A DNA stretch of 64,000 nucleotides from Polycladomyces abyssicola (GTDB lineage: Bacteria; Bacillota; Bacilli; Thermoactinomycetales; JIR-001), in assembly GCF_018326425.1 (NCBI RefSeq), contig NZ_AP024601.1, forward strand, positions 1,538,001 to 1,602,000, in the 5' to 3' direction. A model generated the notes under the pieces. The model was not told where the DNA came from. It saw only the letters and a program-made list of their open reading frames with translations, and ran no database searches. Positions 20,845-47,510 of the stretch are shown here, in pieces. Each line of letters starts with the position of its first letter. Position 1 is the stretch's first letter. Both the position numbers and the translations under genes were made by a program.

Positions 20845-20873
20845 GTGATTGATCAATAGAGGAGGCGATGGGG

Positions 20874-21095
20874 ATGGAACCGATTACAAGCGATTATATC
20901 GTGATCAAGGCGAAAGAAAACGGGGTCAACGTGATCGGGTTGACACGGGGTAAGGATACGCGGTTTCATCACTCGGAAAAGCTGGACAAAGGAGAAGTGA
21001 TGATCGCGCAATTTACGGAACACACTTCGGCGATCAAGGTTCGCGGCAAAGCGACCATTTTGACGCGATATGGAACGATCGATACGGAAGAGTGA
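20874..21095 (+). CDS. mtrB: trp RNA-binding attenuation protein TRAP
   Basis: 73-residue subunit of the 11-mer ring that, when loaded with tryptophan, wraps RNA with (G/U)AG repeats and favours termination of trp transcripts. The match to B. subtilis MtrB is strong across [20 protein letters not shown] and [19 protein letters not shown]; the RNA-contacting Lys/Lys/Arg correspond to K36, K55 and R57. ATG 20874 has GAGGAGG eight bases upstream; ATG 20868 is too close. Its likely target is the repeat array at 32465-32527 in this window. Confidence 0.96.
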
Positions 21096-32060: not shown

Positions 32061-32480
32061 ATGAAGGTGCGAGGCATTCGCGGCGCAACCACGGTGGAAA
32101 AAAATGAAGCGGAATCGATTTTGTCCGCGACGGAGGAACTGTTGCGGGAGATGATCCGGCGCAATCAGGCGACACCGGAGGATATTGCCTGCGTGTTCTT
32201 CACAGTGACGACCGATTTGAACGCGACGTTTCCGGCGCAGGCGATCCGGTCCATGCCGGGATGGGAGATGGTGCCCTTGCTTTGTGCCAACGAAATTCCA
32301 GTGCCGGGAAGTCTGCCGCGCTGCATCCGACTCTTGATGCTGATCAATACGAATCGGGGTCAAGAGGAGATCGAACACGTATATTTGCGCGATGCCCGGG
32401 TGCTGCGGCCGGATTTGACGAAAAATGAGTCATTGACACCCGACGGATTCTCCGATACAGTGATGAGTAAGCCGAGTTGA
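32061..32480 (+). CDS. aroH: Chorismate mutase, AroH type
   Basis: 139-residue monofunctional chorismate mutase of the trimeric AroH class, making prephenate for Phe and Tyr. VRGIRGATTVEKNE at the N-terminus and VFFTVTTDLNATFPAQAIR are typical, with the active-site R7 and a CANEIPVPGSLPRCIR segment. AAGGAGG precedes ATG 32061. The last codons run into the TRAP-binding array, so its 3' end doubles as part of the trp leader. Confidence 0.95.
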   Translation: MKVRGIRGATTVEKNEAESILSATEELLREMIRRNQATPEDIACVFFTVTTDLNATFPAQAIRSMPGWEMVPLLCANEIPVPGSLPRCIRLLMLINTNRGQEEIEHVYLRDARVLRPDLTKNESLTPDGFSDTVMSKPS

Positions 32481-32527
32481 GCCGAGATGGAGACGAGACG
32501 GGAAGAGCATAGCAGAGCGGAGCGGAG
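32465..32527 (+). promoter_or_regulatory. TRAP-binding (G/U)AG repeat array
   Basis: Eleven GAG or TAG triplets start at 32465, 32474, 32479, 32484, 32490, 32495, 32505, 32510, 32515, 32520 and 32525, most spaced five or six bases apart, as in B. subtilis trp leaders. The first ones lie within aroH. GCGGAG at its 3' end (32517-32522 and 32522-32527) is complementary to CTCCGC (32562-32567) in the terminator, which provides the antiterminator that bound TRAP would block. Confidence 0.88.
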
Positions 32528-32549
32528 TGAAAACGAAAACGGACAACTC

Positions 32550-32582
32550 CGACCAAAGCGCCTCCGCTTTGGTCGTTTTTAT
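32550..32582 (+). terminator. trp attenuator terminator
   Basis: CGACCAAAGCG (32550-32560) pairs perfectly with CGCTTTGGTCG (32565-32575), loop CCTC, followed by a T-run. Formed when TRAP covers the upstream GAG repeats; the competing antiterminator uses CTCCGC from the loop and 3' arm. Confidence 0.9.
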
Positions 32583-32624
32583 TTTCCTCATTGATCCTCC
32601 TGTTGCTCCTCTGTTCTCTTCCTG

Positions 32625-32663
32625 CCGGTCGTCTCGTCAGTTCGCACATCATCGACCGGGGGG
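32625..32663 (+). promoter_or_regulatory. Hairpin next to the trpD ribosome site
   Basis: CCGGTCG (32625-32631) pairs with CGACCGG (32653-32659), which overlaps the first bases of the trpD ribosome site GGGGGGA (32658-32664). CGTCTCGTC just after the left arm (32630-32638) is the exact complement of GACGAGACG in the TRAP array (32492-32500). So TRAP binding could free this segment to form the blocking hairpin, comparable to control of trpE translation in B. subtilis. Confidence 0.5.
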
Positions 32664-32669
32664 ATACAG

Positions 32670-33695
32670 ATGCCTGCATTATTGACCCGCGTTGTGGAAG
32701 GAAATGATTTGTCACGTGACGAAGCTCGTCATGTGATGGATGAATTGATGAGCGGTCTGTGGGAGCCGGAGCAAGTGGCCGGTTTGCTGACCGCTATGCG
32801 CATGAAGGGGGAAACGGCCGAAGAGTTGGCCGGAATGGCAGAAAGTCTTCGCACTCGGGCACTGCGTTGGGAAAAACCTGCTACCGACGCTGTGGACACA
32901 TGCGGAACGGGCGGCGATGGTGGTCGTACGTTCAACATTTCCACCGCCGCCGCGATTCTCGCCTCCGCTTGCGGGGTGAAGGTGGCCAAACACGGCAACC
33001 GGGCCGTCTCATCCAAAAGCGGCAGTGCCGATGTGCTGGAAGCTTTGGGAGTACAGATTTCCACCACACCCGATGCTGCACGCGCCATGTTGGAACAGAC
33101 GGGGATCTGTTTTCTGTACGCGCCGCTGTATCATCAGGCTATGAGACATGTGATGCCGGCGAGAAAAGCCCTCGGATTTCGCACTTGTTTCAATCTGCTG
33201 GGACCGCTGGCCAATCCGGCCGGGGTTCGTCGCCAGTTGGTCGGCGTGTACGACCCTGATTTGACGGAAACGGTCGCTCGCGTATTGCTGATGTTGGGTA
33301 TTAAAAGGGCCATGGTGGTGGCCGGGATGGACGGCTTGGACGAAATCTCCGTATCCGGCCCGACACGGGTGAGCGAAGTGCGAAACGGTCATGTCCGCAC
33401 GTATACGATAACACCTGAGGAAATGGGTTTGACCTCTGCACCGCTAGTAGAGGTGGCTGGCGGCGATGCACAAACCAGCGCTGCCTTGATCCGTCGGGTG
33501 TTCGCCGGCGAACGGGGGGCGCCACGGGACATCGTCTTGGCCAATGCCGGAGCGGTGCTGTGGGTGGGGGATCAGGTGGGCAGTTTGGACGAAGGTGTGC
33601 GGGTGGCCGCCCGGGCGATCGACGAAGGAGCGGCGCTGCGTCAGTTGGAGGAGATGGTTCGGTTTTCGGTGGAGGTGTGCACGCGTGTTTCTTGA
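32670..33695 (+). CDS. trpD: Anthranilate phosphoribosyltransferase
   Basis: Transfers phosphoribose to anthranilate, 341 residues. VDTCGTGGDGGRTFNIST (about 71-88) binds PRPP, KHGNRAVSSKSGSADVLEALG follows, and RKALGFRTCFNLLGPLANPA is the anthranilate-side signature. GGGGGGA five bases before ATG 32670. It takes the place that trpE holds in B. subtilis, directly after the TRAP attenuator. trpC begins inside its 3' end. Confidence 0.96.
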   Translation: MPALLTRVVEGNDLSRDEARHVMDELMSGLWEPEQVAGLLTAMRMKGETAEELAGMAESLRTRALRWEKPATDAVDTCGTGGDGGRTFNISTAAAILASACGVKVAKHGNRAVSSKSGSADVLEALGVQISTTPDAARAMLEQTGICFLYAPLYHQAMRHVMPARKALGFRTCFNLLGPLANPAGVRRQLVGVYDPDLTETVARVLLMLGIKRAMVVAGMDGLDEISVSGPTRVSEVRNGHVRTYTITPEEMGLTSAPLVEVAGGDAQTSAALIRRVFAGERGAPRDIVLANAGAVLWVGDQVGSLDEGVRVAARAIDEGAALRQLEEMVRFSVEVCTRVS

Positions 33696-47262: not shown

Positions 47263-47292
47263 AACGCTGGGTTTTGACAAAATCGAATAGCG

Positions 47293-47460
47293 GACTCCTC
47301 TGTTAGGTGAGGCTCCTATACGGAGACAGGCTACTGCCCAAAAATGTCGAGAGACGCCAATGGGTCAACAAAAAAGATCGGATTAAGGTCTTTTTTAATG
47401 TAGCTGGGAGGCATCACTGGCCGACCTATGCCGTATAGTGCTAAAACTCAACGAGGGAGT
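47293..47460 (+). ncRNA. M-box (ykoK) magnesium riboswitch
   Basis: Carries the conserved M-box blocks in order: CTCCTCTGTTAGGTGAGGCT (from 47296), CGGAGACAGGCTACTGCCCA (47321-47340), GTCGAGAGACGCCAATGGGT (near 47347-47366), GCTGGGAGGC (47403-47412) and CTAAAACTCAACGAGGGAG (47441-47459). At high Mg2+ it folds and lets the terminator at 47511 form, shutting off mgtE. Its final CAACGAGGG is complementary to CCCTCTCGTTG of the terminator, which gives the antiterminator. Confidence 0.95.
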
Positions 47461-47510
47461 GGTTGCAACCGAATGTCGCGTTGATGCGGTATTCGGGTAG
47501 ATGTTTTTTG

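Follow-up and report, generated by a model that had tools for sequence, protein, structure and literature searches.

The mechanism of TRAP attenuation is textbook knowledge, and aro genes lie upstream of the trp leader in Bacillus subtilis, as they do in the locus described here. According to two reports, the B. subtilis leader combines 11 triplets, spacers of 2–3 bases, and an antiterminator overlapping the terminator, with TRAP supplied in trans (PMC3913778, PMC11255114). The same reports state that TRAP of B. subtilis can bring about termination even when the attenuator hairpin is missing (PMC3913778) and that the Shine–Dalgarno (SD) sequence of trpE is sequestered by TRAP-linked refolding (PMC11255114). 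The closest published arrangement found is that of Exiguobacterium, in which trpEG and trpDCFBA are under T-boxes (PMC5399880). As in the present case, anthranilate is the point at which the pathway divides into two units that are unlinked yet co-regulated, but the regulators are T-box RNAs there and TRAP here.

The trpD leader of Polycladomyces abyssicola lies in a window of 64,000 nucleotides, i.e., the whole stretch of DNA analyzed, and shares with the B. subtilis trp leader the 11 triplets, their spacing, the (predicted) antiterminator overlapping the terminator, and TRAP encoded in trans. It differs in that the first gene is trpD and not trpE, which is a matter of arrangement and no requirement of the mechanism, in that trpEG is located elsewhere with an array of its own, and in the absence of an anti-TRAP match above the cut-off. 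The locus is very probably a TRAP attenuator of the B. subtilis type that formerly served trpE and now serves trpD and the genes downstream, with trpEG carrying its own array. The mechanism is known; within the literature searched, the trpD-first arrangement, the second putative TRAP site at an unlinked trpEG, and their recurrence are new. The open-access titles and abstracts searched described neither a trpD-first operon nor a TrpE-TrpG fusion under the control of TRAP, and reviews beyond these may cover it.

Anatomy and Conservation of the trpD Leader

The coordinates of the leader and of the surrounding features are given in Table 1. Eleven GAG/TAG triplets at near five-base steps had been described here in an earlier note. 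The count holds (32465, 32474, 32479, 32484, 32490, 32495, 32505, 32510, 32515, 32520, and 32525 in the leader sequence), but the triplet at 32465 falls outside the register, and a GGG at 32500 fills the sixth position. From 32474 onward, the register reads five GAG, the GGG, GAG, TAG, and three GAG, with spacers of 2232222222. The array does overlap the end of aroH, taking in the final 7 bases of the frame; it is followed by a perfect terminator hairpin with a U run, and trpD is the first gene after the leader, all as had been proposed. The promoter-like site inside aroH would place the RNA start near 32468, so that the GAG at 32465 is probably ahead of the transcript. The array would then begin only ~6 bases past the likely start, leaving no room for a 5′ stem-loop such as that of the B. 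subtilis leader.

TABLE 1. Window positions of the trpD leader, its flanking genes, and the TRAP gene.
Feature	Position	Strand	Evidence or remark
mtrB, TRAP protein (75 aa)	20868–21095	+	NF009724, 147.5 bits (cut-off 117); PF02081, 142.5 bits; solved TRAP chains match
aroH, chorismate mutase	32061–32480	+	TIGR01796, 166 bits; open frame; 3′ end overlaps array
Promoter-like TTGACA-17-TACAGT inside aroH	32433–32461	+	Hexamers unchanged in both sister species
Extra GAG	32465–32467	+	9 bases 5′ of array, off the regular register; read from leader sequence
TRAP-binding array (putative)	32474–32527	+	11 positions (10 GAG/TAG and 1 GGG); score 9.55; conserved in sister species
Antiterminator, 5′ part (predicted)	32513–32528	+	Last triplets of array; predicted fold
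Antiterminator, 3′ parts (predicted)	32546–32551 and 32562–32571	+	Overlap terminator; predicted fold
Terminator	32550–32580	+	Perfect 11-bp stem 32550–32575, loop of 4, then TTTTT
CTCTTCC and TCTCGTC	32616–32638	+	Complementary to array 32501–32507 and 32492–32498; modeled pairing with free array
Possible SD-masking 7-bp hairpin	32625–32664	+	CCGGTCG 32625–32631 with CGACCGG 32653–32659; reaches trpD SD; arms kept in sister species
trpD, first gene behind leader	32670–33695	+	TIGR01245, 429 bits

In an array scan of 11 triplets with spacers of 1–4 (score and thresholds as defined in this analysis), the array of the trpD leader was the top site of the window, the runners-up scoring 0.8 on the plus and 1.1 on the minus strand. 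Fifty simulated 64-kb sequences, scanned on one strand and generated as order-1 random sequence rather than exact shuffles, reached a maximum of 3.75, and Rfam at gathering score matched only an M-box and a tRNA in the window. In view of these results, purine-rich repeats that arose by chance in the last part of aroH, or an RNA element of another kind, are an extremely improbable explanation, for which no support was found. The terminator, the promoter, and the fold energy are each less exceptional than the array when taken singly. Counting both strands, the window holds five different stems of 11 bp that are perfect and followed by a T-run; within 3 kb, four terminator-like sites were found vs. 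3.1 expected and one promoter-like match vs. 1.0 expected by chance; and 11 of 200 shuffles folded as well as the RNA 32466–32582 (z = −1.70).

The array score of 9.55 was also obtained in both sister species, i.e., the two other genomes of the genus. Alignment with the two sister species showed a single variable spacer base and no variable triplet in the array, and the stretch from the terminator to the SD was more variable than the array. The lone change in the terminator is a C to T in the 3′ arm, which converts a G-C into a G-U pair in terminator and antiterminator alike.

TRAP and Other Regulators

The TRAP gene had been placed in the same window, and it is indeed encoded there, 11.4 kb upstream of the leader, as the sole PF02081 match of the genome. 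Within the order, Thermoactinomycetales, a TRAP match was found in 39 of 42 genomes. Anti-TRAP (PF15777) exceeded the cut-off in none of the 42, with weak matches in three of them and none in the own genus. A search of the own genome for T-boxes (RF00230) gave 17 matches, 11 of them over the cut-off, and none at either trp leader. One T-box (136.8 bits; L018 9695–9917, minus strand) precedes a trpS-like gene, named by eye, at ~5 kb from trpEG. The M-box, a magnesium riboswitch, is located at 47292–47465 of the window (144.3 bits).

Predicted Antiterminator and Termination Switch

As had been pointed out, GCGGAG at the array end (32517–32522) is complementary to CTCCGC of the terminator (32562–32567), and the two are paired in the predicted free fold. 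In this fold of the RNA 32466–32582, a 10-bp helix (32513–32522 with 32562–32571) stands beside a 6-bp helix (32523–32528 with 32546–32551). TRAP occupancy was modeled by holding the array unpaired. The free RNA was predicted to be mostly in the antiterminator form, and the terminator returned with the array held unpaired. Pairing of the terminator 3′ arm in the downstream RNA at 37°C was 0.16, 0.01, and 0.16 in the three species with the array free and 0.99 with the array unpaired; at 55°C, the corresponding values were 0.20, 0.04, and 0.26, rising to 0.97–0.98. Equal disruption was seen in 17 of 500 random stems and in 24 of 500 shuffled upstream sequences, and the predicted fold switch of the trpD leader is not overwhelming.

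The claim that the logic of the B. subtilis trp leader operates at trpD finds support in the array, the terminator, the predicted competing antiterminator, and the conservation in the sister species. From this anatomy and the predicted folds, we infer TRAP binding, a response to tryptophan, and termination. When tryptophan is plentiful, TRAP would wrap the array and block the antiterminator, so that the terminator hairpin would form and transcription would stop before trpD. When tryptophan is scarce, the last triplets would pair with the terminator arms, and the polymerase would read through.

The fold survey was extended to 33 of the 35 array-bearing leaders of the order (all except L084 and L165). 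Mean terminator probability was 0.52 with the array free, 0.95 with the array bound, and 0.82 with shuffled upstream sequence; it was below 0.5 in 16 of the 33 leaders when free and in none when bound. The remaining 17 showed no drop under 0.5 when free, including those of the trpD-first genomes G031 and G023, in whose predicted folds the thermodynamic switch is absent. These 17 leaders, together with the hairpin-independent termination reported for B. subtilis (PMC3913778), would suit a TRAP that acts mainly on translation or by stopping the polymerase directly, with the antiterminator playing a minor part. Such a mode of action is nevertheless very unlikely, since, in the predicted folds of all three congeneric species, the terminator gives way to the antiterminator and terminators are kept in 31 of the 35 order leaders.

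Gene Orders and Origin of the Leader

Hits of aroB, aroH, trpE-like genes, trpD, and trpC were placed in the 42 genomes of the order. An array scoring 4.5 or more precedes trpE-trpD in 30 of them, and an array is followed by trpD with no trpE between in five, namely, the three genomes of the own genus (G000, G001, and G002), G031, and G023, the last being only 68% complete. The placement aroB-aroH-array-(trpE)-trpD is thus common to 35 genomes, 30 with trpE and five without. The other seven are G005 and G028, in which trpD was unmatched; G016, which has no TRAP match and a leader without an array; G030, with a divergent trpE-G-D set lacking an array; and G019–G021, in which searches for trpD at 1e-60 and for trpE at 1e-30 gave nothing. 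The latter three retain a TRAP match without a recognized trp operon.

Terminators that beat all 20 simulations were found behind the array in 5/5 trpD-first and 26/30 trpE-first leaders. The word CCAAAGC is shared by the stems of 17 of the 35. Owing to these gene orders, the terminators, and the recurrence of CCAAAGC across the order, the leader of the window appears, most simply, to be an ancestral trpE leader that became joined to trpD through the loss of trpE, an order of events that we infer from the comparison of genomes.

The absence from the locus of trpE, the usual target, and the GGG at one array position could also be read as signs of decay, with array and terminator persisting as relics after the loss of trpE, TRAP having ceased to control trpD effectively, and trpD transcribed chiefly from the aro promoter upstream. 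This is very unlikely, as the array triplets, the promoter hexamers, and the terminator stem have been preserved in two sister species, in contrast to the more variable stretch from terminator to SD; trpD is found in first place in other lineages too; and a working terminator before trpD would block read-through from aro as well. The attenuator now serving trpD would, rather, represent an RNA-protein attenuation circuit that has outlived its main target, which was lost and replaced: the leader is retained and takes control of the gene that follows, and the newcomer either brings a site for the same protein or acquires one.

At the trpE-trpD junction of six loci (L030, L033, L035, L037, L039, and L042), weak arrays (3.15–4.8) extend over the SD and start of trpD at ~1460–1525 on the trpD strand. 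All six belong to family f3 and perhaps represent an internal translational TRAP site.

A Putative TRAP Site at the Unlinked trpEG Gene

The anthranilate synthase of P. abyssicola is a 729-aa TrpE-TrpG fusion (PRK13566, 1056 bits; TIGR01815, 1000 bits) encoded 0.6 Mb from the trpD leader, between spoIIP and lepA (neighbors named by eye). The name TIGR01815, which is linked to alphaproteobacteria, suggests a direct alphaproteobacterial source of the gene. Such a source was set aside, as a tree made by a quick method and containing several long branches grouped the own TrpEG with those of Bacillota; given this position in the tree, the gene and its array may have arrived together.

A dense second array, a putative TRAP site, precedes trpEG in each of the three species (scores 8.75, 8.6, and 8.6) and ends ~125–129 bases ahead of the GTG start. 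A loose genome-wide pattern gave 10 matches (4 + 6) at three places; this count proves nothing because the reversed control gave 20 (10 + 10), and the trpD and trpEG sites are singled out by clustering and score only. A third candidate array (G000:C1:1971513–1971540), a two-mismatch match that overlaps the beginning of an FdhD-like gene next to one resembling formate dehydrogenase (both by eye), was rejected as it failed a score of 3 in the 11-position scan.

No terminator was recognized behind the trpEG array in any of the three species of the genus (0/3), and attenuation at this gene was therefore set aside in favor of translational control. The sequence contains a UCCUCC-loop-GGAGGA able to mask the SD, and trpEG is probably controlled through such masking. 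Modeled SD accessibility in 26 trpEG leaders (three own and 23 others; L088, whose array overlaps the SD, was set aside) averaged 0.24 for the free array and 0.09 for the occupied one, compared with 0.14 when the array was shuffled, so that the SD is mostly masked already in the free state. Accessibility fell by more than 0.1 on occupancy in 12 of the 26 leaders, which are related to one another, and rose by that much in none. In B. subtilis, trpG, trpP, and ycbK likewise carry TRAP sites on unlinked genes of the tryptophan regulon that act on translation, but their sites overlap the SD (PMC11255114), whereas the own trpEG array lies ~125 bases upstream and a separate hairpin would mask the SD. 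The unlinked fusion would have replaced trpE under its own TRAP array. With attenuation at trpD and a TRAP array at trpEG, TRAP would couple two parts of the pathway that are encoded far apart.

In G031, trpE and trpG form a pair of separate genes whose SD and start are covered by a looser, TRAP-like array (6.45; L171 1656–1711, minus strand), which is more akin to the sites of B. subtilis trpG, trpP, and ycbK that overlap the SD. This is apparently an independent answer to the loss of trpE before trpD. It was the only one to pass in a scan of TrpE-like loci (the own locus plus 19 elsewhere in the order, among them two from the sister species), in which looser sites may escape; none of the distant TrpE-like loci, pabB-like by similarity, had an array of at least 4 over 11 positions or at least 4.9 over eight.

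Possible Translational Control at trpD

In the read-through RNA, a second TRAP-dependent refolding might, on weak indications, also mask the ribosome site of trpD. The 7-bp SD hairpin with its array-complementary flanks recalls the SD refolding of B. subtilis trpE (PMC11255114). Modeled accessibility of the trpD SD at 37°C was 0.23 with the array free and 0.23 with it bound in the own sequence, and 0.31/0.19 and 0.31/0.23 in the sister species. At 55°C, it was 0.29/0.23 in the own sequence and 0.43/0.21 and 0.45/0.24 in the sisters. In these models, TRAP-dependent masking of the trpD SD is suggestive in the sister species and lacks support in the own sequence at 37°C.

Recurrence Beyond the Order

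For a wider sample, 594 confirmed TrpEG stretches were narrowed to the best 80. Among these 80, arrays of at least 4.7 precede trpEG at 24 of 33 Bacillota loci vs. none of 47 others (maximum 0.8), and the best score in 1,600 simulated upstream sequences was 3.7. PF02081 was found in 31 of the 33 sampled Bacillota genomes and in none of the seven non-Bacillota genomes searched.

The trpD locus was surveyed in 30 of these 33 Bacillota genomes (L105, L109, and L159 were left out). In 16, trpD lies behind an array of at least 5 at a locus without a trpE-like match, a class read from only ~1.5 kb of upstream sequence, with array–trpD gaps of 1 to ~743 bases, and including L240, in which an open frame of ~175 codons lies between array and trpD. 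The TRAP match is absent from one of the 16, a Syntrophomonas MAG (G071). A trpE-like gene is retained beside trpD in seven genomes; six have weak or no trpD sites (1.05–3.85; five Saccharibacillus and one Sporolactobacillus), and L244 has no site at the trpD locus.

Arrays at both trpD and trpEG occur in 12 of the 16 trpD-first genomes of this best-80 sample, i.e., 12/30: three Paenibacillus, two each of Tumebacillus and Terrilactibacillus, and one each of Brevibacillus, Rossellomorea, Sporolactobacillus, Pseudalkalibacillus, and Shouchella. At trpEG, the remaining four scored 3.95, 3.1, 1.4, and −1.5. Terminators beating the simulations were found in 11 of the 16 trpD leaders vs. 3 of 22 trpEG leaders, which fits attenuation at trpD and translational control at trpEG. 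In this comparison, the best array per locus was used, leaders without any hairpin were entered as 20/20, and the trpEG set comprised 22 of the 24 array-bearing Bacillota leaders (L088 and L097 were left out); the trpD leader of L229 was scored on its SD-overlapping array, so that its terminator, visible by eye, went unscored.

With moderate confidence, we propose that in Bacillota in which trpE has given way to a TrpE-TrpG fusion or to trpE and trpG as a separate pair, TRAP has repeatedly come to coordinate the two unlinked parts of tryptophan synthesis, by termination before trpD and SD masking at trpEG, and in the order studied without a recognizable anti-TRAP. The set of TRAP targets would thereby be widened beyond those of B. 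subtilis, and these genomes offer natural cases for testing whether one TRAP can balance two unlinked units via two mechanisms.

The two Tumebacillus trpD leaders each contain two TRAP-like arrays (L226, 1284–1337 and 1448–1501; L229, minus strand, 1292–1347 and 1436–1491), one before a terminator hairpin and the other over the SD and start of trpD, a possible double lock.
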